From a virus, in the IMG/VR virus record IMGVR_UViG_3300046558_000408, positions 1 to 47,702 of that record: a stretch of DNA of 47,702 nucleotides; one strand, 5' to 3'. The translations under genes and the position numbers were made by a program. Within the stretch, counting starts at the first letter, position 1. Each line of letters opens with the position of its first letter. The notes under the pieces are model-generated. The model ran no database searches. It saw only the letters and a program-made list of their open reading frames with translations, and was not told the DNA's origin. Positions 18,802-46,824 of this stretch are shown in pieces.

Positions 18802-18886
18802 GGGGCGAGCTGCCAGATGGGCGCCGGGCCGGACTGTAAATCTGGCGTCTGAGACTCGCGTGGTTCGACTCCACGTCGCCCCACCA
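18802..18886 (+). tRNA. tRNA-Tyr (anticodon GTA)
   Basis: 85 nt with CCA encoded. Acceptor arms GGGGCGA / TCGCCCC are perfect. The anticodon stem CCGGA/TCTGG encloses loop CTGTAAA (anticodon GTA), there is a class II variable arm (GTCTGAGAC), and the T-arm is CGTGG-TTCGACT-CCACG. The length is exactly that of bacterial tRNA-Tyr. The D-arm (TGCCAGATGGGC region) pairs poorly, so the molecule is divergent and may be a phage-adapted or decaying tRNA. Confidence 0.82.
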
Positions 18887-18960
18887 TTCCGAACTACGGG
18901 GATTCCCGTAATTTCCACAAGTGACAATCAGGGCCGACCCCCGGCGGGGCCTTTCCGTTT

Positions 18961-19034
18961 GCGGGCCTGGCCGATTGGTCAGGCCTCACCCTTCCAAGGT
19001 GACCAGGTGGGTTCGATTCCCACGGCCCGCTCCA
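18961..19034 (+). tRNA. tRNA-Gly (anticodon TCC)
   Basis: 74 nt with CCA encoded. Acceptor GCGGGCC / GGCCCGC, D-stem GCC/GGC, anticodon stem-loop TCACC-CTTCCAA-GGTGA (TCC), and T-arm GTGGG-TTCGATT-CCCAC are all well formed. TCC reads GGA/GGG, codons that a high-GC host uses little, so it could help translate some phage genes. Confidence 0.93.
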
Positions 19035-19182: not shown

Positions 19183-19947
19183 TTGAAGACAAAAACCCTT
19201 TTCCCATGGCCGGGTGGCAAGACACGCCTGGCGAAGAACCTCCTGCCGCTGATCAATGAGCGGCCCCACACCTGTTATGTCGAAGCCTTCGCCGGAAGCG
19301 CAGCGATGCTTTTCGAGCGGTCACCGGCAAAGATCGAAGTCCTGAATGACACGCACGGCGAGCTGGTCAGGCTTTTCCGTGTCGTGGCCAACCACTTAGA
19401 CGAGTTCGTCCGCCACTTTAGGTGGTCCCTCACTAGCCGAGAGATGTATCGGTGGGCCCACCTCCAAGACGTGGAAACGCTGACCGACATCCAGCGTGCA
19501 GCCCGGTTCTACTACCTTCAGAAGCTGAGTTTCGGCGCCAAGTTAGAGGGGCAGACGTTCGGCGTCGGCCCGACCTCCACGAAACGAATCAACTTGATGC
19601 GGCTGGAGCAGGACCTGAGCGACGCACACCTCCGGCTCCAAGGCGTCGTGGTTGAGAACCTTGGTTGGCAGCGATGTGTCGAGAAATACGACCGAGCCGA
19701 GACGCTGTTCCTCTTGGATCCCCCGTATTGGGAAACCACCGGTTATGGGGAACCCTTTCCCCTGCAGCAGTACGAGCAGCTTGCCTCCACGATGGCGGGA
19801 TTGAAGGGCAGGGCGATCCTGACCATCAACGACCACCCCGAGATGCGCCGGCTGTTTGACCAGTTCGAGCGGAGGGAGGTCCCCATCCGCTACACCGTCG
19901 GGGGCGGCGCCGGCGTGGCGCGGACTGAGCTGATCTATGTCACATAG
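19183..19947 (+). CDS. DNA adenine methyltransferase (D12 class, Dam-like)
   Basis: 254 residues from a TTG start (no ATG is possible upstream in frame; ribosome-binding site weak). Motifs: 'PWPGGKTRLAKNLLPLI' (7-23, the FxGGK-type SAM/DNA region), 'VEAFAGSAAMLF' (33-44, SAM binding), and catalytic DPPY at 179-182 followed by W. The protein methylates N6 of adenine in a short site, most often GATC in this class. No restriction enzyme is beside it, so it probably protects phage DNA from host cleavage or alters gene expression. It sits in the accessory island between the tRNAs and lysis genes. Confidence 0.92.
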   Translation: MKTKTLFPWPGGKTRLAKNLLPLINERPHTCYVEAFAGSAAMLFERSPAKIEVLNDTHGELVRLFRVVANHLDEFVRHFRWSLTSREMYRWAHLQDVETLTDIQRAARFYYLQKLSFGAKLEGQTFGVGPTSTKRINLMRLEQDLSDAHLRLQGVVVENLGWQRCVEKYDRAETLFLLDPPYWETTGYGEPFPLQQYEQLASTMAGLKGRAILTINDHPEMRRLFDQFERREVPIRYTVGGGAGVARTELIYVT

Positions 19948-32346: not shown

Positions 32347-32498
32347 CCTACACCCTGGCCCAGCTTCGGGCCTTTGTCGCCGCTGCTGCCCGTGCGGAGC
32401 GGCAGCAGCGCGCCGGCATGGCCGTCGCCATGCGCCTGGCGATGACGCCTGACCAAGCCGCGTGGGCGCAGTACCTGAAGGAGAACTTGCATGGCTGA
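31888..32498 (+). CDS. Tail assembly chaperone G-T fusion by -1 frameshift (gpGT-like)
   Basis: The first 113 codons are shared with gpG, then ribosomes slip -1 at T TTT TTC (32220-32226) and continue in frame from 32226 through 90 codons to TGA at 32496-32498. The T part reads 'GWGDLIHQLIACGHQRRDILTYTLAQLRAFVAAAARAERQQRAGMAVAMRLAMTPDQAAWAQYLKENLHG'. This is protein-like and resembles known T extensions that link G to the tape measure. About 203 residues in total. It ends inside the tape-measure start. Confidence 0.85.
32220..32226 (+). promoter_or_regulatory. -1 ribosomal frameshift site T TTT TTC
   Basis: Heptamer TTTTTTC in zero frame as GA T TTT TTC GCC. Both codons re-pair after a one-base backward slip (Phe-Phe). 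It differs from lambda's GGGAAAG but has the ideal X XXY YYZ form. Confidence 0.85.
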
Positions 32499-35256
32499 GC
32501 CTACTGCCAATCTGCGTGTGCGCCTCAGCGCGGACATCAACGACATCAAGCAGGGCATGGCGGTGCTGCGCCGGGAGCTGCGGCAGACGCAAAGCGAAGC
32601 GGCGCGGCCACTGCCGAAGAACAACGGCATCGCCGAGCTTGGCGTCAGCGCCGGCCAGACGCAGCAGGCGCTGCGGCAGCTGCCGGCGCAGTTCACCGAC
32701 ATCTTCACCAGTCTGCAAGGTGGGATGCCGTGGTTCACGGTGCTGGTGCAGCAGGGCGGCCAGATCAAGGACAGCTTCGGCGGGGTTGAGCCGGCGCTGA
32801 AGGGCGTGTCCTCGGCGGTGCTGGGAATGGTCACTCCCGTTACCGCGGCGGCCGCCGCCGTTGGCGTGCTGATGTACGCCTGGTACGACGCCGAGAAGCA
32901 GCAGGAAGCCTACGTGCGGGCGCTGGTGCTGTCCGGTAACGAGGGCGAGGTAACCACGCTCAGCCTGATCAACCTGGCCAAGCGGACCACCGACGCGATG
33001 CAGGTCACTGCCGGCGCAGGTGCCGAAGTGGCTCAGGCGATCGGCGCCAACGGGCAGGTCGCCGCCCAGAACATGCAGGCGGTGGCCAACGCGGCCATTG
33101 CAATGAAGGAGCTTACTGGCCAGGCCGTCGACGAGACGGTGGCCAACTACGGGAAGCTGGCCGACGCGCCGGTCAAGAATGCCCAGAAGCTCAACGAGCA
33201 GGTCAACTTCATGACCGTCGCGCTCTACGAGCAGATCAAGGCGTTGCAGGAGCAAGGGCGGAACCAGGACGCGGCCACCCTGATCACCAGAGCCGCCTCG
33301 GACGAAACGGTCATGGCACTGGCGAAGGTGCGTGCCAGCCAGAACCCTGTCATTCGCGGGTTCAAGGATTTGTTCGCTGAGGCCACCAAGGCGTGGGGTG
33401 CAATGCAGGCGAAGGCCGGATTCGGCGCAGCCGGTGCCCAGATGCAGGAGATGTTGGCCCGTAATCAGACCGATCTGGCGCGGCTTAATCAGCTCAGTGC
33501 GCTGCCGGGTGCGAGCCGCAGCTATATCTCCCAACTCGAAAACGACATCAAGGAGCGTTCGGCCAGGATCAAGGCCATTGCTGCCGACGTGGCGAAAGAG
33601 CGCAAGGATGCCGAGGTCAAGGCAGCTCAGGCCGTTTCCGCCGACTACGTCAGCGCCATGGACGCCATCATCGACGCAGAGGCCAGCAAGGAAGAAAAGA
33701 AGCGTCGGGAAATCGCGCAGGTCGCAGGCCAGGCCGATGAGGCGATTCGGCGGGCCCGCGCAGCCAACCTCCTGAAGGAGGTTGCAACGCTCGAGGACAA
33801 GAAAGCGCAGGCGCTGGTCGCAATCGAGAAGAAGTACGAAGACAAGAAGCCCAAGGGCGGCAGCACGGCCAATGCGTCGCGTGCTGCAGGGCTGCAGGGC
33901 TACCGCGATGATTTGCTGCAGGAACAGGCCACGATCACGGCCGGCACCCAGTTGCTGCGTGCGCAGTATTCCGCCCGTGAGATCACGGCCACCGAGTACT
34001 ACCAGCGACTGCGTGATCTGGCGCAGGCCAGCACCGAAGCAGAGGCCCGCTCGCTCGAGGGACAGATATCCTTCCTGAAGCAGCAGAACGTTGCCGGAAA
34101 GGACGGCATCAACGTGAGCCGGCAGCTGGGCGACCTGGAGGCACGCTTGGCCAAGGTGCGTACGGAAGGCGCAGGCAAGCTGCAGGTGCTGAGCAAGGAG
34201 GAGGAAACGGCCGCCAGCACTCGGACGAATGTCATCAAGGCCTACGCCAATGCACTGGATGCAAGCAACAAGGCGCTCGAGCGGCAGCTGCAGGCCGTAG
34301 CGGGCCGAGTGGGGATGGGGGAGCGAGAGTACGAGATCCAGCAGCGCATTAACGACGCCTACGCCGACCAAGCCGAAAAGCAGCGTGAACTACAGCTGCA
34401 GCTCAACGCGAAGCAGATCGACGAGAAAATGTTCGCGGAAGAGGAGGCCGTGCTGCTGGCCAAGACCGCTGATCGTCTACAGATCGTGCGTGACGGGTAT
34501 GCCGAGCTGGCAGCCGCTGAGGCGGATTGGCTCAATGGTGCGCGCGCTGCATGGGCGGATTACCAGCAGCAGGCGACCAATGCGGCCGAGCAGCTGGGCA
34601 TGGCCGCAGCGAACGTGTTCAGTGGAATGGAAGATGCCTGGACGAAGTTCACCACCGGGGGAAAGCTCAGCTTCTCGGATCTCACACGCTCCGTGATCGC
34701 TGATCTGTCCCGCATCGCCTTCCGCCAGGCGGCGATGGGCATGACGGACTGGATCGGGGGCGCTTTCTCCGCGTTCACTGGTGGTGTGACGGCCGCTGGC
34801 AACGTCGCGGTAACGGCGGGCACGCAGAGCATCAATAATGACCTGTTCAAGCGCCGGGGACCGGGCTTCGACACCGGCGGCTACACGGGGCCGGGCGGGA
34901 TCCACGAACCCGCAGGCATCGTGCATAAGGGAGAGGTGGTCTGGTCGCAGGCCGATGTCGCCCGGGCCGGCGGCGTTGGGATCGTTGAAGCAATGCGCCG
35001 TGGGCTGATGGGCTACGCGACGGGCGGCGCAGTGGGCAGCGGCAACCCTGCCGTGGCTGGATTCGGCGCACTCAACGTCACCGTCAAGAACGCACCGGCC
35101 GGCACAACGGCGACCGCCACGCGTGGGCCGGGCGGTGTCGACGTCGAGGTGCTGCTTGGCCAGCTCGATGACGCGTTGGGCGGGCGCGTCGCAAGCGGGA
35201 CCGGTTCTACCTACAGCGCCATGCGATCCCGGTTTGGCTTGGAGGACACGCTCTGA
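32491..35256 (+). CDS. Tail tape measure protein (gpH-like)
   Basis: 921 residues. N-terminal 'LRVRLSADINDIKQGMAVLRRELRQT' is typical for lambda-type tape measures. The middle region is long coiled coil with hydrophobic helices ('GVSSAVLGMVTPVTAAAAAVGVLMYAWYDAEKQ'). Near the C-terminus are 'NVFSGMEDAWTKFTTGGKLSFSDLTRSVIADLSRIAFRQ' and 'FDTGGYTGPGGIHEPAGIVHKGEVVWSQADVARAGG', which are widely conserved. Length suggests a tail of roughly 140 nm at 0.15 nm per residue (inference). Overlaps the T end by 8 nt. Confidence 0.94.
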   Translation: MAEPTANLRVRLSADINDIKQGMAVLRRELRQTQSEAARPLPKNNGIAELGVSAGQTQQALRQLPAQFTDIFTSLQGGMPWFTVLVQQGGQIKDSFGGVEPALKGVSSAVLGMVTPVTAAAAAVGVLMYAWYDAEKQQEAYVRALVLSGNEGEVTTLSLINLAKRTTDAMQVTAGAGAEVAQAIGANGQVAAQNMQAVANAAIAMKELTGQAVDETVANYGKLADAPVKNAQKLNEQVNFMTVALYEQIKALQEQGRNQDAATLITRAASDETVMALAKVRASQNPVIRGFKDLFAEATKAWGAMQAKAGFGAAGAQMQEMLARNQTDLARLNQLSALPGASRSYISQLENDIKERSARIKAIAADVAKERKDAEVKAAQAVSADYVSAMDAIIDAEASKEEKKRREIAQVAGQADEAIRRARAANLLKEVATLEDKKAQALVAIEKKYEDKKPKGGSTANASRAAGLQGYRDDLLQEQATITAGTQLLRAQYSAREITATEYYQRLRDLAQASTEAEARSLEGQISFLKQQNVAGKDGINVSRQLGDLEARLAKVRTEGAGKLQVLSKEEETAASTRTNVIKAYANALDASNKALERQLQAVAGRVGMGEREYEIQQRINDAYADQAEKQRELQLQLNAKQIDEKMFAEEEAVLLAKTADRLQIVRDGYAELAAAEADWLNGARAAWADYQQQATNAAEQLGMAAANVFSGMEDAWTKFTTGGKLSFSDLTRSVIADLSRIAFRQAAMGMTDWIGGAFSAFTGGVTAAGNVAVTAGTQSINNDLFKRRGPGFDTGGYTGPGGIHEPAGIVHKGEVVWSQADVARAGGVGIVEAMRRGLMGYATGGAVGSGNPAVAGFGALNVTVKNAPAGTTATATRGPGGVDVEVLLGQLDDALGGRVASGTGSTYSAMRSRFGLEDTL

Positions 35257-36070: not shown

Positions 36071-36465
36071 TGCGGCCCGCAGATGTCGAGCCGTTCACGC
36101 TCATCCCCTACGACCCTGATTCAGCCGATTGCGCGGATCTGGTGGTCAGCGTCCAGCGCGAACTGTTCGGCCGGCATGTCGAGATGCCCAGCCGCCGGCC
36201 GCGCGGCGCGCGCGGGGAGGCCGAGTTGGGGGCGCTCTCCCGGCCCTATGCGCGATTGCGGGAGGGACCGCCGCAGGACGGCGATCTGGTCCTGATGTTC
36301 GACCACGGACAACGAAACCCCGGCCATGCCGGGGTTTTCTTCTTTCTGGCCCATGAGGGCTGGGTACTCCACAGCAACGAGCGCCACGGGTGCAGCGTCC
36401 TGCACCGCGTGCGCGAACTGCAGGGCTTCGGCCTGCGCATCGAAGGAATTTACGAATGGGTCTGA
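36070..36465 (+). CDS. NlpC/P60-type tail peptidase (gpK-like)
   Basis: 131 residues. 'DPDSADCADLVVSVQREL' contains the nucleophilic Cys, 'NPGHAGVFFFLAHEGWVLHSN' the His and surrounding strands. These fit the NlpC/P60 cysteine peptidase fold that cleaves peptidoglycan cross-links during DNA entry. It lacks the JAB-type N-terminal domain that lambda gpK also has, so it is a shortened version. The end overlaps J by 10 nt. Confidence 0.83.
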   Translation: MRPADVEPFTLIPYDPDSADCADLVVSVQRELFGRHVEMPSRRPRGARGEAELGALSRPYARLREGPPQDGDLVLMFDHGQRNPGHAGVFFFLAHEGWVLHSNERHGCSVLHRVRELQGFGLRIEGIYEWV

Positions 36466-39400
36466 TGGATAGCCCGGCCGCCAGCGGCCGCCTGATCGTG
36501 ACGCCGCACCCGGTGCTGGTCGATGGCCAGCGCAACCAGCCGGCGGACCTGCGCCCGGGCGAATCCCTCTGCGCCTTCCTGCATCGTCACGTGACCGACC
36601 TCGACGACCAGGACTGGGTGGTGCTGATCGGCGGCCGCGGCGGCCGCGGCGATCGCGGCATCCCTCGCGAAATGTGGCCCTTCGTGTACCCGAAGCATGG
36701 CCAGGTGATTGAAGTCCGTGGGGCGGTGGGCCGCTCCGCCGTCGCGCTGGTGGCCACCCTGGCGCTGACCTACTTCACCTTCGGCTTCGGCACGTTGGCG
36801 ACGTGGGGCGCCGGCGCCGCGGTGCAGGGGCTTGGCGCCGCTGCCGCGACCGGCATCTACATGGCCGGCTCCGTGCTCATCAACCGCGTGCTGCAGCCCA
36901 AGCAGCCGAAGCAGAGTGCTCCCGGCCAGTCGGCGTACTCGATCGCGGCCGGCCGCAACCGTGCTCGCCACGACCAGCCGGTGGGCCTGCTGATCGGGTC
37001 GATGCGCATCGCGCCGGACTTGATCAGCAACTACTACACCCATTACGAGGGTGACGACCAGTTCCTGTCGTTCGTGCTGACCCCCGGGCTGAACGTGCAT
37101 AGCGTGGAACAGCTCTACAACGGCGACGCACTGCTGTCGTCCTTCGAAGGGGTGCGCGTGTGGCACAACGGCTTCGCCGGGATGCCCAGCGCGGAGATCC
37201 CGCTGCACAGCAACGCCGATGTGACCGACGGCGGCACCTTGCTGGATACCAGCAACGACCCCAAGCATCAGCCGAGCGCGTGGGTGCAGCGCACCAGCTC
37301 CGCCGGCACCATCCGTCTGATGGTAGGCGTGGAGTTCCAGATCTGGGACCGGTCCACGAAGGGCAAGGACAAGCAGAACAGCGACCAGATCCAGATCCAG
37401 TACCGCGCCGCCGGCACGGTCAACTGGCAGGTGTTCGGCAATTACAACGTCCGCGGCACCAACAACAAGAGCCAGCGTGCCAGTTATGCGATCGACGTGC
37501 CCGAGGGGCAGTACGACGTGCGCGTGCGCGTGGCTGGCAACAACACTGACGGCTCGGGTGCTGAAGCGTCGTTCGTTTGGACCACGCTGACCAGCGTTCA
37601 GCGCGACACGGCGAGCTACGTCGGGATTCCGCGCATCGGCATCCGCATGCAGGCCAACGGGCAGCTCAACGGCGCTCCGGACGAAATCCGCTGCGTCGCC
37701 CATTCCATGCCGATTCCCGTCTGGACGGGCACGGAGTGGGTGACCCAGCGCACCAGCAATGCGGGGGCGTGGATCCTCGCCTATGCCCGTGGCATCTACG
37801 CGCCTGACCCCACCGCACCAGGTGGGCGCGCGCTGGTCGCCGGCATGGGTCTGCCCGAACGGCAGATCGATCTCGAGGGCCTCAAGGCCTTCATGCTCCA
37901 CTGTGCCGCCAACAATTTCACCTACAACAACTGGATCACGGATGTCCGCAGCCACCAGCAGGTGCTGGACGTGCTGGCGCTGGCCGGCTTCGGGCAGATC
38001 AGCTGGCCACGCGGGCGACTGTCCGTTGGCTGGGCTGCCGATGAGCAGCCGCTGTCGGGCGTGGTCAACATGGCCACGATCAAGAAGGGGCAGTTTCAGG
38101 TCGACTACACCCTGACCAATGGCGCCGACGGCATCGAGTACACCTATCTGGACAGCGCGACCTGGCAGCCCAAGACGCTGCGCGTGCCTGCCCCAGGCGT
38201 CACCACCATGCTCAACCCGGCCCAGGTGACGGGCGAGGGCGTAACCACCGAGGCGCACGCCGTGATGCTGGCCCGCTGGCACCTGGCGCAGAGCCTGTAC
38301 CAGTACAAGGCAATCAGCTACAGCACCGATATCGAACACCTGTCCTACAGTCGGATGTCGATGCTGGCGCTGCAGCACGACATGACGCAGTGGGGCTTCG
38401 GTGGGCGAATCAAGGGCGCTTCGATCACAGGCGGCAGGGCCACCCTGCAGCTTGACGAGCCCGTGCCGGCGCCCGCGCAGGGCAACGCCTTCGTTGGACT
38501 GCGCATCCCGGGAGAACGCGTGTACCGCGTGCTGCGTGTACAGCCCTTTGCCGGCACCAGCGACACCTTTGTGCTGGCCGATGGTTGGCCTGCCGATGCA
38601 GCCCTGCCGGGCAACAGCGAGGCCAACCCGGCCTGGGACACGCTGTGGATCTACGACTTCAAGCAGACCCCGGGCCTGCGCGTGCGCGTGACCAGCATCC
38701 GGCCCGAGAGTGACCTGAAGGGTGCCGCGGTCGAAGTGGTAGCGGAGAGCCCGCAGTTCTGGCAGTACGTGAAGACCGGAGAGTACGTCCGTGATCCGAA
38801 CGAATCCCTGCTGCAGACCCGGCCGGTGGCGAGCGACCTGAAGATCACCGAGCGCCAGGTGGTGCAGGGCGACACCGAGTACACCGAGCTGCAGGTCAGC
38901 TTCGCCATCACCGGTCCAGTGGGCGACACCGTGGTGCTTTCCGATCTGGACGGCAATGCGGCGCTCGAGGAAGTGGCCAGGACCGTCACCCGCACCGCGA
39001 CGTGGCGGATTCCGGGCGCTGGTACGTACCCGATCACCGTGCGGCCGTACAGCCCGGATGGCAACGCCGGTGTGGCGGCCTCCGTTATCTATACGACCCG
39101 GGGCGCCGACGCCCCGCCGGTGCTGGTGGACATCTTCGACGTGGAGCAGCTGAGCGGCGGTGTGCGCCGCTACACCTGGGGCTTCCTCGGCGAGACCATC
39201 CAGTCCGCCAACTTCGCCGGCGTGGAGATCCGCTATATCGCCGGCACCGTGGCCACGCCGGACTGGGATGCGATGACGCCGATCGGCGACGACGGTTACC
39301 ACGCCTCGGCCTTCGAGGCCGTGCTGCCGCCCGCTGGCGTGTGGACCTTTGCATGCCGCTCGCGCAATACCGCCGGCACCCTTTCCGCCGGCATGCGGGT

Positions 39401-42400
39401 GCTGGCCAAGACCCTGCAGGCCAACCTGGGCGAAGTGATCGGCGGCATCGAGGATTCGCTCGAGGAGCAGGTCCAGAGGCAGGTCGAGCAGCAGCAGCAG
39501 ATCGACCGCGATCGCGCCGACAGCATTGCGCGCGATGCAGCGGAGGCGGCTGAGCGCGCCTCCGCGTTCGCCCAGGCGCAGGTCGACCTGGTCAACGAGT
39601 CCGCCCTGCGCCGCGCCGCGGTCAACAAGGTCGCCGAAGACCTGGCCACCGAGGCGGGGCAGCGGGTGGCAGCGGTGAACGACGCCATCGGGAGGACCGA
39701 GGCGGTCGCGAACAGCCTTTCCGCTGAAACGCTGGCGCGGCAGCAGGCGCTGATCAATGAGCGCCTGGCACGGCAGGCCGAGGTCAGCGCTGAGAGCACT
39801 GCCCGGCAGACCGCCGACGATTCGTTCGCCCAGCAGCTGGCAATCATCTCTGCGGGCAGCGGCACGCAGTTCGACTTCAAGACTATCTGGTACTTCGACA
39901 CTGCCGTCGAGGGGTGGACCTCCAACGGGGGCACCCCGACGATGGTCAACGGCTGGCTGCGTCCGTTCAACAGTTCTGCAGCGCACGTGCAGTCCCCAGC
40001 TGGACTGGGCGTTGACGGCAACGCTTACCGCTTCGTCAAGCTGCGGATGCAGAAAGTTGGGAATCCAGCCTGGCTGGGTCGCGTGCGGTGGATCACCGAG
40101 GCGGACACCGCTTGGAATGACACCAAGATGGTCACGATCCCGCAGCCCGCGTTCGACGCCAACGGCATCGCGACGGTGGACGTGGACAACATTCCTTGGA
40201 ACGGCGCCTCGCCCATTCGCGCCATTCGGCTCGCGCTCACCGTCGCGCAGACCGCCGCCGATTACGTGCTGTATGACTACATCGCCGTCGGCCGGCCGGC
40301 ACCGGGCGCCAGCGTGGCGATGGTGCAGGCGGAGACGACCGCGCGCACCACGGCTATCGCGGCCGAGGCGACCCAGCGCAACAGTTTGGGCGCACAGCTG
40401 CGCGGCAACTACACCGGCAGCGACCTCGGCCAGGTGACGCAGGGGCTTATCGGCGATGAGAAGTCCGCCCGCGTGGCGGCTGACACCGCCCAGGTGACGC
40501 GCATCAGCACCATGGAGGCGCGGATGCCTTCCGGCGCCGGCCCGCTGGGCACGTCGGCGCGCATCGAGGAGGTCAACAGCGCCAGCGTGGCCCGGGACTC
40601 GGCGAACACCGACCTGATCACCAAGGCGCAGTCGGATCTGGGCGGCTTGGTCGCACAGGGCTCCAACATGGTCGTCAACGGCGGCTGGGAGCTGCCCGCG
40701 AACGTCGGTTGGACCTACTCGGGCACCAACCAGAGCGTCGCCGCTGAAGGGCGCACGGGCGGCAACTGCTGGAAGGCTCTGGGTAGCCCCGACACCCAGC
40801 GGGCGTCAGTCAACGCTGGGGCCAAGATGCCGGTTACCATCGGCCGCAGCTACCGAATTACTGCCTGGTACAAGACCAGCGCGGACTATAACGGCACTGG
40901 CGGCAACGGAAAGGTGCGCATCGGCCGCGGCGACGGAACGCTGATTGCGGGGCTGGCATTCGCCTCTAATCGCGCCGACTGGACCCAGCTGACCTACGAG
41001 CTGACCGCTACCACGGTCAACGAAATCGTCATCGGCATCACCAACGACGCCACGGCGGGCACGCTGTGGGTTGATGACGTGTGGATGGAGGAAGTCACCG
41101 AGGCCAAGGCGAACGCGACGGCGATCAGCGGCATCAACACCCGCGTGACGGCCGCAGAAGGCACGCTCACCTCGCAGGGCCAGCTGATCAATGCGCTGCG
41201 CACCGACGTGGACGGCAAGGCCAGCAACAGCGCAGTGACCGAGCTGACGGGCCGCGTCACCGTGGCTGAAGGGAAGATCGACACGCAGGGCCAGGCGATC
41301 AGCGCCGTTCAGACGGCTGTAGCCGGCAAGGCCGATACCAGCGCTATGAACGCGCTGACCGGCCGCGTGCAGACAGCTGAAGGCAAGATCGACGCACAGG
41401 CCACTGCGATCACCAACGTGCAGAGCAGTCTGCAGAACCTCGGCGGTGAAAACCTGCTGGGCAACAGTAGCTGGGACGTCGATGCGATTGGTTGGTCCAA
41501 CGCTAGCAGCGGTCAGGGTTCGGGCGGTATCACACAGTCGCTGGTGGACTCGGTGCTGCCAAACAGCGCCAAGGCCTGGCGCTGGAATATGAGCAACTGG
41601 CCAACCGCAGGCTACCGCGAGGCTATCTCCAACAGTGCCGTCCGCCAGCTGCGCGTTGAAGGCGGAAAGAAGCACGCCATGTCGTTGTACGCTCGCGGCA
41701 CCGCTGGCCCGCGCGTGTTCATGCAGATCCGATGGTACGACGCGGCAGGCGGCACCATCCGCTACAGCGGCACCCCGGCGGGCGCACCGTTCCTTGTCAC
41801 TGAGTTATGGGACCGAAAAGTCTTTGTGTTCGATGCACCAGCCGATGCCGTGTCAGCCAACGTGTACATCCGCATCTACGGTGCCAACACGGTTGATCAG
41901 TGGGTTGAACTGGACAACGTGCAGATCCAAGTCGGCGAAGTGGCCACCGGATACGCGCCGTCCATCGTCGAAGCCAAATCGTCCATCGCTGCCAACGCCG
42001 CTGCAACCAACGCATTGGACACGCGCGTCACTGTCGCCGAAGGGACCATCGTGGCCCAGGGCACGGCGATCACGAATGTAGCCAGCAACCTGCAGAACAG
42101 CGGGGGTGACAACCTGCTGCCTAACAGCAGTTTTGAGCAGCGCGCTAGCGAGGTTTCTGCGCCTATCAGCTGGGTTGTAGAAGGCACCATCCCGTCAGGC
42201 ATCTCCCAGTCCTACGTGGATTCACCGTTGTCAGGCGGTGGAAAGGCGTATCGCCTCGGCGGAACCACGACAGCTGCAAATCAGTATCTTGGTCTGGCAC
42301 TGGGCAACACTGCCGCTGTCCGGCCGGTTGCCAAGGGTGCAACGGACTACACGTTGTCGGGTTGGTTCCGCGCGCCGGTTGGCGAGATGGTGCGGACGTA

Positions 42401-45400
42401 CATGCAGTTTATGAACGCCGCCGGTGCGGTGATCGCAACCATCACCTCGCCCGATCAGATTGCCACTGGCGAATGGCAGCGTTACACGTTGACTGGTCGC
42501 ACCTCGCTTACCACAGCTGCCAGCATCCGCGTGTTCCCGTCACGTCTGTTCACCGCTGCGTCTGGCACGGCGACGTGGATTGAAATGGACAACGTGATGC
42601 TGCAGGAAGGCCCGGTGGCCACGCAGTGGTCGCCTAGTGTCGCCGAGGCTGCAGCAGCGGCAACCGCCAACGCTACGGCAACGAACGCGCTCAGCACGCG
42701 GGTAACTGCGGCAGAAGGCTCCATCACCAGCCAGGGCACGGCGATCACCAACGTGACGGCTAATCTGGCCACCACCGCAGCCAGCCTTGACGATGCGATT
42801 CGCGCTGGCAGCAACATGGTGGTTGACGGCAGCTTTGAACGTCGCGCTGTTGGCACGCTGCTGCAGTCATGGGCACCTATCGTTGCCAGCGGCCGCACGG
42901 GCGCGAACGCGCTGCAGATCGGATTCAACGGCGTAGTCCGCAGCACCACTATCCAGACGTTTGAAGTGACACCAGATCGCGTGTACTACGCCGAGGCGTG
43001 GGTAAAGCGGGTCGGCCCTGCGGCGGGGGCAATGTCACTGCGGTTTGCGGTCAGCGCCAACGGCAACAACCCGTCCTATCCCAACTTCGCGTCGCCCGCG
43101 CTGTCCACCTTCTCCGAAACCGATTGGACCAAGGTTAGCGGTTACGTGCGCGTTTCGGCCGGCAACAACCGCGCGCTGCTGCAGTTGAACAGTTCTGCTG
43201 CCACCACGTCGGCCACGCAGCTGCTGTGGGATGACTTCGTGCTAATGGACGTGACCGAGGCGTACAACGCGCAGCTGTCCGCCAATGCTGCAGCCCAGGC
43301 CACCACCGATCTGACGGCGCGCGTGATTACCGCCGAGGGCAAGATCGACGCGCAGGCCACGTCGCTGACCCAGGTGCAGAGCAACATTGGAGCCTTGGAG
43401 GAGGGGGGCAACGTCCTGCTCAATGGCAAGTTCACCACCGACGCGGCCAACTGGTACGACTCGGCCGCCGGCAGCTCCTTCTCCTGGGATGCCAGCGAGC
43501 GGGCGCTGGTATCGGGTGCGGGATCCCTGCGCGTGCGCGCCAACGAGTTCAAGGTGAACCCCGGCGACAGGATCGTGGTGTCCTTCCGCTACAAGGTGAG
43601 CGCCGGGACGACCAGCACGGCCTCCGACACCGTTGGCCTGATCACCAGCCTCACCAGCCCCACCAACTGGCTGGTGTCCAGCGGCGCCTTCTCCTCGGGC
43701 ACGGGCGCCGGCCAGTGGCAGACGCGGCGGTACGAATGGTCCATCCCTGTCTCGACAGCGCCTGGCACAACGGTCTATCTGCGCTTCGCCGTCGGATCCA
43801 TTACGCCGGCGGCAGGCCAGATGTGGCTGGACGATGTAGTGGTCAACGTCGGGTCCACGGTGGCCACGCTCAATGCTCAGGGCGCGGCCAACGCCCAGGC
43901 CGCGTCGTCCTTGAATACCCGAGTTACTGCAGCCGAAGGCACGCTTACCAGCCAAGGCACGGCCATCACCAACGTGACGGCCACCGCCAACGCTGCGAAG
44001 GGCACGGCCGATGCGGCCGCGTCTGGCCTGGCCGCCACGCAGGCCACGGTCACTCAGCAGGGGAATACGATCACGGCGCAGGGTAGCCAGATCAATTCGG
44101 TGCAGGCGTCGCTGGGCGGCAAGGCCGATGCGTCTGTAGTGCAGAGCATGCAGGTGCAAGTAAGCAACGCCACAAGCGGTGGAAACCTGCTTGTCAACTC
44201 CATGTTCCCTCGATGGCAGCGCACAGGTTGGGGCTGGGGCGGAAATGCCAGTAACTGGGGGGAGCTTGGCGATCCAACAGGGGACGGAAACTGGAGCCCG
44301 CTGGGTGTCACGGGAATTGGTTCCTCGGCGGGCGGCACGCCGCCGGCGGGGCAGGTGAGCTGGCTGGGCACCGAGTACAACATCTCAGTAATCCCGGGCA
44401 AGACTTACTGCCAGTCGGCATGGGTGAACGGTCATCGCTGCGACCTGATCCTGGAGCTGACTTGGATAGACGCGAACAACAACGCCATCAGCAACGTAAA
44501 CAGTGCTGGATGGCTACAAAACATTGGTGGAAACCCGCGCGAAGGTCTGCACCTGATCCCGCGGCCCTTCATCATCGCAAAGGCCCCTGCCAACGCGGTC
44601 GGTGCACGCTTCCGATTGCTGGTCAACGGTCGGGGCGAGGCGAATCCGTACCTCTGGATGTTCCGCCCGATGTTCAGTCAGGTCGACCCGGGCACGACGC
44701 AGCCACCTGAATGGTCATCGGGCGGTGCAGAAACATTCGCCGAAGCGTCGATCATGACGAACGTCAACGGGATGATCAGCGGCTGGCAAAACAAGAACAA
44801 CGGCACTACCAGCGAGTTCAACATCCTGGCCGATGCACTAAACGTTCTGGGCTCCGGCGGGGTTGACGGTTTCGAGATGACCAAGGGCCGTATCCGTGCG
44901 TGGTCTGGAAACTTCCAGGCAATTATCGGGGCACCGTTCGGACCCGACGGTCTGATGCTTTATTTCGGTCCAAATGTCGGGGTCGACAACGCCAGCAAGG
45001 CCATCGCCACTATCTGGTTCGACCGTTTTGGGAATGCCTACTGGGGTGGCGCTATCGCAGCAGGCGCGCTGAAGAACGCGTTCCAGTCCACCAGCATTCA
45101 GACCGTGGGCAACTCCGTCACCGTGGGTCCGTTCGACACTAATGGGCGAAACAAGAATGTCGTGGTCAGCTTCCAGCGCAACATCCGGCGCCTGAAGTGG
45201 GCTGGAGGCGCAACTGGCTTTGTCGCTGGGGGCGGATCCAACTACGCAGTCATCCAGGTATTCCGGCAGGTGGAGGGCCAGGCCGAGACGCTGTGGACCC
45301 AGTTCACCGTCGGCGGCGATGTCACGATCTTCAATCAGAACGATGGCAGTGACAGCGCTGAGTCGTATTGGAACGGGGCCTACACGCTTAACGACCAGTC

Positions 45401-45533
45401 TGACGGCACGACGCGCCGCACCTACCGGGCGGTTGTGGCCGATTACGGCGAGCGCTCCATCACCCACCAATCGGGTTCCTTCGATACGCAGAACGTAACG
45501 CAGAGCCTGTCGTTAGTGTCTCTCGAGCAGTAA
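36456..45533 (+). CDS. Giant host-specificity/tail tip protein J with I-like N-terminus and repeated lectin-like modules
   Basis: 3025 residues, 2.7 times lambda J (1132). ATG 36456 has AAGGA 8 nt upstream. Residues ~1-160 include a hydrophobic Gly/Ala-rich stretch ('VALVATLALTYFTFGFGTLATWGAGAAVQGLGAAAATGIYMAGSV') like lambda gpI, so I and J seem fused. Residues ~160-1000 are the TipJ baseplate-like core with fibronectin-like ends ('VVLSDLDGNAALEEVARTVTRTATWRIPG'). After a coiled coil come seven beta-sandwich modules (about 1139-1285, 1401-1548, 1662-1835, 1882-2061, 2117-2266, 2317-2466, 2573-2755), most opening with '(S/E/D)N(M/L)(V/L)xN/D(G/S)SxE'. They are joined by helical 'TAAEGTLTSQGTAITNV' repeats. 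A DUF1983-like region (from ~2755) ends in a beta-rich tip. Confidence 0.92.
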   Translation: MGLMDSPAASGRLIVTPHPVLVDGQRNQPADLRPGESLCAFLHRHVTDLDDQDWVVLIGGRGGRGDRGIPREMWPFVYPKHGQVIEVRGAVGRSAVALVATLALTYFTFGFGTLATWGAGAAVQGLGAAAATGIYMAGSVLINRVLQPKQPKQSAPGQSAYSIAAGRNRARHDQPVGLLIGSMRIAPDLISNYYTHYEGDDQFLSFVLTPGLNVHSVEQLYNGDALLSSFEGVRVWHNGFAGMPSAEIPLHSNADVTDGGTLLDTSNDPKHQPSAWVQRTSSAGTIRLMVGVEFQIWDRSTKGKDKQNSDQIQIQYRAAGTVNWQVFGNYNVRGTNNKSQRASYAIDVPEGQYDVRVRVAGNNTDGSGAEASFVWTTLTSVQRDTASYVGIPRIGIRMQANGQLNGAPDEIRCVAHSMPIPVWTGTEWVTQRTSNAGAWILAYARGIYAPDPTAPGGRALVAGMGLPERQIDLEGLKAFMLHCAANNFTYNNWITDVRSHQQVLDVLALAGFGQISWPRGRLSVGWAADEQPLSGVVNMATIKKGQFQVDYTLTNGADGIEYTYLDSATWQPKTLRVPAPGVTTMLNPAQVTGEGVTTEAHAVMLARWHLAQSLYQYKAISYSTDIEHLSYSRMSMLALQHDMTQWGFGGRIKGASITGGRATLQLDEPVPAPAQGNAFVGLRIPGERVYRVLRVQPFAGTSDTFVLADGWPADAALPGNSEANPAWDTLWIYDFKQTPGLRVRVTSIRPESDLKGAAVEVVAESPQFWQYVKTGEYVRDPNESLLQTRPVASDLKITERQVVQGDTEYTELQVSFAITGPVGDTVVLSDLDGNAALEEVARTVTRTATWRIPGAGTYPITVRPYSPDGNAGVAASVIYTTRGADAPPVLVDIFDVEQLSGGVRRYTWGFLGETIQSANFAGVEIRYIAGTVATPDWDAMTPIGDDGYHASAFEAVLPPAGVWTFACRSRNTAGTLSAGMRVLAKTLQANLGEVIGGIEDSLEEQVQRQVEQQQQIDRDRADSIARDAAEAAERASAFAQAQVDLVNESALRRAAVNKVAEDLATEAGQRVAAVNDAIGRTEAVANSLSAETLARQQALINERLARQAEVSAESTARQTADDSFAQQLAIISAGSGTQFDFKTIWYFDTAVEGWTSNGGTPTMVNGWLRPFNSSAAHVQSPAGLGVDGNAYRFVKLRMQKVGNPAWLGRVRWITEADTAWNDTKMVTIPQPAFDANGIATVDVDNIPWNGASPIRAIRLALTVAQTAADYVLYDYIAVGRPAPGASVAMVQAETTARTTAIAAEATQRNSLGAQLRGNYTGSDLGQVTQGLIGDEKSARVAADTAQVTRISTMEARMPSGAGPLGTSARIEEVNSASVARDSANTDLITKAQSDLGGLVAQGSNMVVNGGWELPANVGWTYSGTNQSVAAEGRTGGNCWKALGSPDTQRASVNAGAKMPVTIGRSYRITAWYKTSADYNGTGGNGKVRIGRGDGTLIAGLAFASNRADWTQLTYELTATTVNEIVIGITNDATAGTLWVDDVWMEEVTEAKANATAISGINTRVTAAEGTLTSQGQLINALRTDVDGKASNSAVTELTGRVTVAEGKIDTQGQAISAVQTAVAGKADTSAMNALTGRVQTAEGKIDAQATAITNVQSSLQNLGGENLLGNSSWDVDAIGWSNASSGQGSGGITQSLVDSVLPNSAKAWRWNMSNWPTAGYREAISNSAVRQLRVEGGKKHAMSLYARGTAGPRVFMQIRWYDAAGGTIRYSGTPAGAPFLVTELWDRKVFVFDAPADAVSANVYIRIYGANTVDQWVELDNVQIQVGEVATGYAPSIVEAKSSIAANAAATNALDTRVTVAEGTIVAQGTAITNVASNLQNSGGDNLLPNSSFEQRASEVSAPISWVVEGTIPSGISQSYVDSPLSGGGKAYRLGGTTTAANQYLGLALGNTAAVRPVAKGATDYTLSGWFRAPVGEMVRTYMQFMNAAGAVIATITSPDQIATGEWQRYTLTGRTSLTTAASIRVFPSRLFTAASGTATWIEMDNVMLQEGPVATQWSPSVAEAAAAATANATATNALSTRVTAAEGSITSQGTAITNVTANLATTAASLDDAIRAGSNMVVDGSFERRAVGTLLQSWAPIVASGRTGANALQIGFNGVVRSTTIQTFEVTPDRVYYAEAWVKRVGPAAGAMSLRFAVSANGNNPSYPNFASPALSTFSETDWTKVSGYVRVSAGNNRALLQLNSSAATTSATQLLWDDFVLMDVTEAYNAQLSANAAAQATTDLTARVITAEGKIDAQATSLTQVQSNIGALEEGGNVLLNGKFTTDAANWYDSAAGSSFSWDASERALVSGAGSLRVRANEFKVNPGDRIVVSFRYKVSAGTTSTASDTVGLITSLTSPTNWLVSSGAFSSGTGAGQWQTRRYEWSIPVSTAPGTTVYLRFAVGSITPAAGQMWLDDVVVNVGSTVATLNAQGAANAQAASSLNTRVTAAEGTLTSQGTAITNVTATANAAKGTADAAASGLAATQATVTQQGNTITAQGSQINSVQASLGGKADASVVQSMQVQVSNATSGGNLLVNSMFPRWQRTGWGWGGNASNWGELGDPTGDGNWSPLGVTGIGSSAGGTPPAGQVSWLGTEYNISVIPGKTYCQSAWVNGHRCDLILELTWIDANNNAISNVNSAGWLQNIGGNPREGLHLIPRPFIIAKAPANAVGARFRLLVNGRGEANPYLWMFRPMFSQVDPGTTQPPEWSSGGAETFAEASIMTNVNGMISGWQNKNNGTTSEFNILADALNVLGSGGVDGFEMTKGRIRAWSGNFQAIIGAPFGPDGLMLYFGPNVGVDNASKAIATIWFDRFGNAYWGGAIAAGALKNAFQSTSIQTVGNSVTVGPFDTNGRNKNVVVSFQRNIRRLKWAGGATGFVAGGGSNYAVIQVFRQVEGQAETLWTQFTVGGDVTIFNQNDGSDSAESYWNGAYTLNDQSDGTTRRTYRAVVADYGERSITHQSGSFDTQNVTQSLSLVSLEQ

Positions 45534-45588: not shown

Positions 45589-46044
45589 ATGAATTTCGAT
45601 ACCGTTCTGAACATCCGCACCGAGAGCGCAGGCCAGCGGGGCGTGATCGTCCTGCAGTTCGTCCCTCAGCAGAACATCGGCACCCAGCAGCTCACGCTCT
45701 CCACCGCCCCGGCGACCGCTGCGGCCATGGAGGTCGGCGCCCGCTACAACTGGACAGCCGTCAAGGTTGAACCAGGCCAGGGCGGCACCGGCGGCCCGCC
45801 GACCGCCATGAGCTTCGCCACTACTTTGAACCAGCGCACCGAGTCCGCGACTCAGCCTGGCGTTGCCACCCTGCAGTTCCTGCCGGAGGCCAGCATCGGC
45901 GCACCCCAGCTCACCATGACCGTGCCTCTGGCGGTGTCGTCGCCCTTGGAGGTCGGTTCTACCTATCGCTTCGAGGCGGTCAAGGTCGACGATCCGGCGG
46001 ACCAGGCGCAGGGACCGGCTGTCCCAGTTGAAGAGGCTGCGTAA
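45589..46044 (+). CDS. Tandem-duplicated structural-type protein downstream of J
   Basis: 151 residues made of two copies of a ~62-residue beta unit. 'MNFDTVLNIRTESAGQRGVIVLQFVPQQNIGTQQLTLS...MEVGARYNWTAVKVE' and 'MSFATTLNQRTESATQPGVATLQFLPEASIGAPQLTMT...LEVGSTYRFEAVKVD' align throughout. Linker is Gly-rich. It follows J at 55 bp and may be a tail-tip chaperone or receptor-blocking protein. Alternatively a small capsid-exposed protein; unknown. Confidence 0.75.
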   Translation: MNFDTVLNIRTESAGQRGVIVLQFVPQQNIGTQQLTLSTAPATAAAMEVGARYNWTAVKVEPGQGGTGGPPTAMSFATTLNQRTESATQPGVATLQFLPEASIGAPQLTMTVPLAVSSPLEVGSTYRFEAVKVDDPADQAQGPAVPVEEAA

Positions 46045-46058
46045 GCGGCTGGGAAGGC

Positions 46059-46724
46059 TCAGGCAACGGCAGCAAGCAGATCCTGCACGTTGTTCCTGGG
46101 CGAGTTGACGGCCCGACTGACGCGGTAGGCCTCCATCGCTGGTGGCTCGCTGGCCAGCAGCATCGCCATAGCGTCGTCTGGTTCGGCGGCCATCCAGTCG
46201 TCGACCTGCCCGGGCTGCAGCCACACCGGCATGCGGTCGTGGATATCGGCCGACACACCACTGCTGTCGCCGGTGATGATGGTGAAGGTGCCGAGGTTGC
46301 CCTCGGCCAGGAGAGGGCTGGTGTCTTCCCACAGGCCGGCAGCCAGCAGCGGCCCGGCAGCGTGGATGAACCACGGATCCTTCTTCCCGTCCTCGGGGCT
46401 GACCGACCACTCGTAATAGCCGGCCATCGGGACGACGCAGCGCCGCTTCTTGAACGCAGCGCGGAAGGCAGGCTTTGTGGCCACGGTCTCGATGCGGGCG
46501 TTGATGGTCGAACCCTGCAGGCCCTTGGCCTTGGCCCAGAAGGGGAGGAGGCCCCATGCCAGCCGGGTGACCTGCCGGCCGGTGCCGCGGTCGAGGATGA
46601 CCGACGCACGCTGGGTCGGCGCTAGGTTATAGCTGGGCGGCAGCTCGAGCAGATCTTGGGCAAGATCGGGCAGGCCGAGCTGGTCAGGCTTGAATATCGG
46701 GGTCTGAACGAATCGCCCGCACAT
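46059..46724 (-). CDS. SRAP-domain protein (YedK/HMCES-like abasic-site protein)
   Basis: 221 residues from the ATG that places Cys at position 2 (MCGRF), essential for the thiazolidine link to abasic DNA; an upstream in-frame ATG is rejected. Asn75, Glu105 (GYYEW) and His162 (IHDRMP) match the known YedK active site residues. It shields abasic sites in single-stranded DNA. Convergent with the preceding structural gene, and divergent from the BLUF gene. Likely moron or host-derived cargo that protects phage replication forks. Confidence 0.93.
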   Translation of the reverse strand: MCGRFVQTPIFKPDQLGLPDLAQDLLELPPSYNLAPTQRASVILDRGTGRQVTRLAWGLLPFWAKAKGLQGSTINARIETVATKPAFRAAFKKRRCVVPMAGYYEWSVSPEDGKKDPWFIHAAGPLLAAGLWEDTSPLLAEGNLGTFTIITGDSSGVSADIHDRMPVWLQPGQVDDWMAAEPDDAMAMLLASEPPAMEAYRVSRAVNSPRNNVQDLLAAVA

Positions 46725-46824
46725 GCGGCACCCATACCGCATGCACCGTGAGCGAATCGACTACATCATCACGATACTTTGTTCATATTCGGGTTATGGT
46801 CGTGAGCCCCCTCGGGAGCCTGGT

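Follow-up and report, generated by a model that had tools for sequence, protein, structure and literature searches.

We analyzed IMG/VR virus record IMGVR_UViG_3300046558_000408 over its full 47,702 nucleotides (the window), focusing on its gene J. The J product is best explained as a lambda-J-type central tail fibre lengthened by an array of seven beta-sandwich modules of carbohydrate-binding type, joined by helical linkers, with modules exchanged between related phages by homologous recombination. We consider this explanation, taken as a whole, to be about 80% probable. Comparison with related loci (designated below by L numbers) demonstrates module exchange between related phages, with borders at linkers and module edges.

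The source phage is a Stenotrophomonas-type prophage, and genes for integrase, terminase, portal, protease, major head protein, tape measure and minor tail proteins precede J in the record. J closes the tail gene block (tape measure at 32491-35256, minor tail proteins, then J). Its open reading frame extends from 36390 to 45533, with a likely ATG at 36456 that gives a protein of 3,025 residues. Assignment to phrog_31 ("central tail fiber J", E = 5e-136) and an FNIII-A_GpJ domain (PF24801) at residues 274-382 (E = 2e-10, above the curated cut-off) identify an N-terminal hub of the J type. The N-terminal part is 92-96% identical in nucleotide sequence to L002, L005, L006 and L008 over about 3.1 kb, and the last 246 residues are encoded with 85% nucleotide identity to L044 and L005; a Pfam search gave no family for the C-terminal domain. 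Antisense to the N-terminal part runs an open frame of 1,178 codons (36450-39986), probably caused by G+C-rich codon usage. The parts of J are as follows.

36456-39845, plus strand: N-terminal part with tail-tip hub, FNIII-A_GpJ and first helical stretch, conserved in relatives
39846-40322, plus strand: module 1 (type A), from profile; first module in multi-module arrays of the window's group
40323-40658, plus strand: linker 1-2, predicted helical
40659-41120, plus strand: module 2 (type P), CBM16-like (CBM, carbohydrate-binding module) by sequence profile and predicted structure
41121-41444, plus strand: linker 2-3, contains a 37-residue (111-nucleotide) tandem repeat, predicted helical
41445-41960, plus strand: module 3 (type C), CBM4-like by predicted structure
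41961-42104, plus strand: linker 3-4, contains CAGGGCACGGCGATCAC at 42057
42105-42635, plus strand: module 4 (type I), 33% amino acid identity to module 3
42636-42806, plus strand: linker 4-5, contains CAGGGCACGGCGATCAC at 42732
42807-43274, plus strand: module 5 (type E), with relatives also in phages with a different fibre N-terminus
43275-43403, plus strand: linker 5-6, 81% nucleotide identity over 140 nucleotides to an L008 linker at another position
43404-43877, plus strand: module 6 (type Q/B), with relatives at position 2 in L002, L005 and L044
43878-44177, plus strand: linker 6-7, two-mismatch copy of the 17-mer at 43953; 85% nucleotide identity over 125 nucleotides to an L008 linker
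44178-44708, plus strand: module 7 (type R), the type most often found last within the window's group
44709-45533, plus strand: C-terminal domain, conserved among relatives

The initial annotation had recognized seven repeated modules at 39866-44720; profile and sequence comparison recovers seven, spanning 39846-44708, and the linkers between them are helical in predicted models. The opening motif described there holds for modules 2-7, while module 1 has GTQFDFKTIWYFD in its place; modules 1 and 7 have degenerate forms of the closing-strand motif. The linker before the last module carries an extra segment, KGKVLYQSAAPAAADRLAQNLWIDTTGNANTPKRWNGSAWVAVTDKA, in L044, L005 and L002 that is absent from the window.

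Exchange of single modules is evident from conflicting relationships within sets of three loci. Around module 3, L044 and L005 share 93% nucleotide identity in the preceding linker and 92% in the following one, versus 57% in the module body; their identity of about 92% ends at the module 3 opening and resumes from its closing strand. Compared with the window, in contrast, L044 has a module 3 body of 81% nucleotide identity between linkers of 56 and 62%. Over the first 690 codons, the window shares 97% identity with L005 and 85% with L044. A second set consists of L058, L055 and L013. L058 and L055 are close on either side of module 3 and of module 5, while these two modules themselves differ; the body preceding the last one is 98% identical between the two loci at the amino acid level, versus 34% for the last body. 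The last module body of L058 instead matches that of L013 (97% amino acid and 92% nucleotide identity), although the preceding body is only 25% identical in amino acids and the N-termini are unrelated, which points to transfer across tail types. Since these relationships conflict, recombination is needed to account for them. Highly similar fragments are thus common to proteins that differ elsewhere.

The exchange borders, which are sharp to about 10 codons, avoid the module bodies. Counting collapsed block borders in non-redundant loci, we found 4 of 55 in bodies, versus 28.7 expected by length, and the remainder in linkers (28 versus 15.5 expected), module openings (11 versus 4.0) and closings (12 versus 6.8).

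Module number is not constant among relatives either. Relatives of the J N-terminus were collected from 42 viral and 8 genome loci. Among these, J genes complete within their locus encode proteins of 1,333 to 3,025 residues with 0 to 7 modules. The window and L005 have 7 and 5 modules, respectively, yet are 94.7% identical over their first 3,157 nucleotides; L013 and L014 have 6 and 1, yet are 93.8% identical over 2,846 nucleotides; L020 and L022 differ by one module, between two common ones. Within the window's group, the type of the first module is constant across multi-module arrays, and that of the last mostly so. The relative order of module types differs for three pairs (the type at position 6 of the window, for example, is at position 2 in L002, L005 and L044), and types C and E adjoin in L044, L005 and L055-L060, whereas the window and L053 have type I (module 4 in the window) between them. 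Most array differences are replacement, gain or loss at fixed positions, with re-ordering in few cases. The proposal that recombination alters module number therefore stands in so far as modules undergo exchange, gain, loss and, in a few instances, re-ordering, the borders lying at linkers or module edges, but this is seen only between different phages: our comparisons revealed no deletion or shuffling inside one phage.

The array is not confined to J proteins. A scan with module 5 identified nine contigs beyond those found by the N-terminus. In eight of them (L055-L062), the array is part of proteins whose lengths range from 1,399 (truncated at the contig end) to 1,727 residues; their first ~130-200 residues have no J match and the hub is absent, showing that the array has been transferred between unrelated N-termini. 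The array protein of L055-L062 lies downstream of a separate large open reading frame (1,273 codons in L058), and the hub may be a separate protein in these phages. A scan with module 3 gave a single weak match, L063, in a seemingly unrelated protein. In L054 (9407-12319), the J frame fuses the first ~180 residues to the inside of a type-E module with loss of the whole hub; either a genuine internal deletion or a chimeric assembly may explain this.

The same pattern is present in complete genomes of the Stenotrophomonas phages Bhz55, Yut1, Yut4, Siara, BUCT626, BUCT627 and BUCT548 (Siaravirus and Bixiavirus), whose J proteins have 2,553-2,566 residues. The difference is mainly one module for Bhz55 versus Yut1, three modules for Yut1 versus Yut4 and two for BUCT626 versus BUCT627, and the intervening linkers are kept. 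As J length is nearly constant in these isolates, modules can be swapped without a change in length.

Pairwise identity among the seven modules is weak (11-33%). In leave-one-out profile tests, modules 2, 4, 5 and 6 were clearly recovered, modules 3 and 7 weakly, and module 1 scored below shuffled sequence. Structure prediction suggests a beta-sandwich of carbohydrate-binding or phage-baseplate type for modules 1, 2, 3 and 7. Module 2 resembles CBM16 in its model (VIA Z about 14) and also in sequence, where its type alignment hits CBM16 chains at E = 4e-5 and, at E = 2e-7, the central fibre gp20 of phage Douge. Module 3 resembles CBM4 (VIA Z about 14) and module 7 a phage tailspike TSP4 domain, CBM61, CBM4 and CBM16 (VIA Z 10-12). 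The predicted fold is of the CBM type in modules 2, 3 and 7, whereas module 1 is instead predicted to resemble siphophage R4C baseplate chain 8gtc_M (VIA Z 13.1; 3.3 Å, 147 aligned, 18% identity). Modules 1 and 7 were counted in the array because of their predicted structure. Modules 4-6 are putative members on sequence grounds, with matches to CBM_4_9 below threshold for module 4 (E = 0.11) and module 5 (E = 0.003). Module 6 was assigned by its profile (E = 9e-5 for 100 sequences in the leave-one-out test); its amino acid identity to module 2 of L002, L005 and L044 is 45-48%. We make no fold claim for modules 5 and 6, because the model of modules 5-7 is poor there. The best CBM_4_9 score in Pfam was 18.3 bits, versus a curated cut-off of 25.9, and we therefore speak of a CBM-like fold rather than of CBM family members. 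Foldseek ranked long insecticidal proteins highest for the three-module model, with a very large root-mean-square deviation over several domains; we read these as alignments of repeated beta-sandwiches, not as kinship. Unrelated folds were not found: a carbohydrate-binding-type beta-sandwich is common to the modules whose model could be judged.

Based on this fold, the modules may bind host glycans; in phage Douge, expressed central fibre domains with such folds bound the host surface. Most likely, the array would present several weak contacts to surface glycans before the distal end engages the receptor. Single modules would be replaced, gained or lost by homologous recombination between J genes of related phages sharing a cell. 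One crossover would fall on each side of the module, either within the linker or within the conserved codons at the module ends (the first ~15 or last ~25), so that the pair of crossovers would swap the variable body and keep the reading frame. Host RecA or the recombinase of another phage might catalyze the reaction, during co-infection or superinfection of lysogens. Recombination between phages in one cell is the simplest account that we can infer, and module exchange may affect host range.

Several points weigh against this explanation. Modules 1, 3 and 7 gave weak or no signal in the leave-one-out profile tests, and the structure models are of modest confidence (mean predicted local distance difference test scores, pLDDT, of 56 and 65), modules 4-6 being without a good model. 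A common CBM fold does not show sugar binding. The border counts are pseudo-replicated by shared ancestry, so that we do not rely on p-values, and the ends of BLAST blocks are approximate. The linkers of the window show no excess DNA similarity among themselves, and recombinases of the RecT, Erf and YqaJ families were not found in the record, which may be incomplete. Some of the compared loci are metagenome contigs; the worry about assembly artefacts is answered by the complete isolate genomes with the same pattern.

A more far-reaching version of the exchange hypothesis holds that linkers and conserved module edges are standing crossover sites for an interchangeable pool of glycan-binding modules, common to several groups of phages of Stenotrophomonas and relatives. 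Phages would then continually draw new module combinations, including inside a single lysogen or lysate. We regard this as speculative and rather improbable.

A slightly less probable alternative is that near-identical linker repeats recombine inside one gene, so that module number shifts often within one phage population. In-frame linker repeats are indeed present. The 17-mer CAGGGCACGGCGATCAC occurs, as initially annotated, exactly at 42057 and 42732 and with two changes at 43953, and allowing for up to 3 mismatches, we found 6 copies in the window versus an expectation of 0.47 from shuffled sequences, not one of which had as many as 6. The description of the linker DNA as near-identical was however overstated: six copies of 95 nucleotides are 60-74% identical to the reference copy, and the exact repeat spans only 17 nucleotides. 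Moreover, the synonymous positions of the J linkers are without excess identity. Conserved linker residues have an identical codon in 116 of 240 cases, versus 113 expected from the codon usage of the gene, so that the similarity of linker DNA is due to repeats in the protein. This test rules out linker DNA as a mark of recent recombination within J; the linkers of the window are not recent DNA duplicates of each other. Some comparisons do favour intragenic events. The one-module difference between L020 and L022 lies between two modules that they share, and the linker between types C and E in L044 and L005 appears hybrid, with its first half nearer to the C-I linker of the window (20/32 versus 15/32) and its second half nearer to the I-E linker (13/29 versus 8/20 in L044), the pattern expected if a crossover in the linker core had removed or added module I. 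This signal is small, however, and weak or absent in other pairs, and the seven Siaravirus and Bixiavirus isolates hold J within a narrow length range.

It is very unlikely that the modules have diverged in place under strong diversifying selection, with linkers and edges held by structure and no exchange at all. Such divergence would likewise yield conserved linkers and variable bodies, but the module 3 body of L044 is nearest to that of the window while its linkers are nearest to those of L005, the last module of L058 is near-identical to that of L013 though the preceding part differs, and module number and order change. The conflicting triples rule out in-place divergence alone. A programmed diversity system (diversity-generating retroelement, DNA invertase or shufflon) acting on variable receptor-binding bodies between constant flanks has a negligible probability and was discarded: the changes cover whole bodies instead of being scattered over positions of a single template repeat, the possibly incomplete record gave no match to reverse transcriptase (RVT_1) or serine invertase (Resolvase family), with positive controls for both, and inverted repeats around the modules are imperfect, with no long perfect ones.

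For exchange between related phages, the favoured explanation, the carriers of module replacement include prophages, phages with another fibre N-terminus and isolated Stenotrophomonas maltophilia phages. With natural pairs in which one module is the main difference (Bhz55 and Yut1, L044 and L005), the contribution of a single module to adsorption becomes directly measurable.

Outside J, the record contains a small open reading frame right after it (45589-46044) with two similar halves, an apparent internal duplication, and no PHROG match. The next gene (46059-46742, minus strand) belongs to phrog_1599 (unknown function); its product begins like what we take to be SOS-response-associated (SRAP/YedK-type) proteins. 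Genes for tRNA-Tyr and tRNA-Gly (18802-19034) adjoin a DNA methyltransferase gene at 19183.

A literature search aimed at the J module array, in which subscription journals were thinly covered, found no description of it. Its elements have counterparts in known systems. Glycoside hydrolases have CBM16 and CBM4 modules (2zew, 3oea, 2y6j) whose fold the J modules are predicted to share (Z about 14, with 13-25% identity in the aligned part); the J modules, however, have no catalytic partner. CBM decorations on phage tail-tip proteins are well known (PMC7291167). "Evolved" Dit and Tal likewise have carbohydrate-binding modules added to conserved tail-tip proteins, with one or two modules inserted, however, rather than a long tandem array on helical linkers (PMC7291167). 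Lambda gpJ is a trimeric central fibre with a hub and fibronectin III repeats (PMC7291167), which J resembles as a phrog_31 member with FNIII-A_GpJ; gpJ has 1,132 residues and a C-terminal LamB-binding part (PMC7291167), in contrast to the 3,025 residues and seven extra modules of J. In mycobacteriophage Douge, the central fibre gp20 (PDB 8zdo, 8zdp, 8zdq) also has carbohydrate-binding-type folds, matched by the module 2 profile as given above, and its expressed fibre domains bind the host surface; its hub arrangement and host type are different, and the accessible part of that report describes no seven-module tandem array or exchange (PMC13033339).

Exchange of domains between phage receptor-binding proteins, recent events included, is established (Smug et al., 2023, PMC10684548), and our findings are of this known kind, with the addition that exchange borders can be mapped. 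As in that survey, recent domain exchange occurs between otherwise related tail proteins, and fragments are common to proteins that are otherwise unrelated. The tail-fibre example of Smug et al. (2023, PMC10684548), however, keeps its N-terminus and replaces the C-terminal domain. In J, unlike in this example, replacement affects individual modules inside a tandem array while the flanks on both sides are retained, and module number varies. Compared with the terminal-domain replacement in this closest published survey, internal tandem modules are thus replaced one by one, with borders defined to about ten codons.

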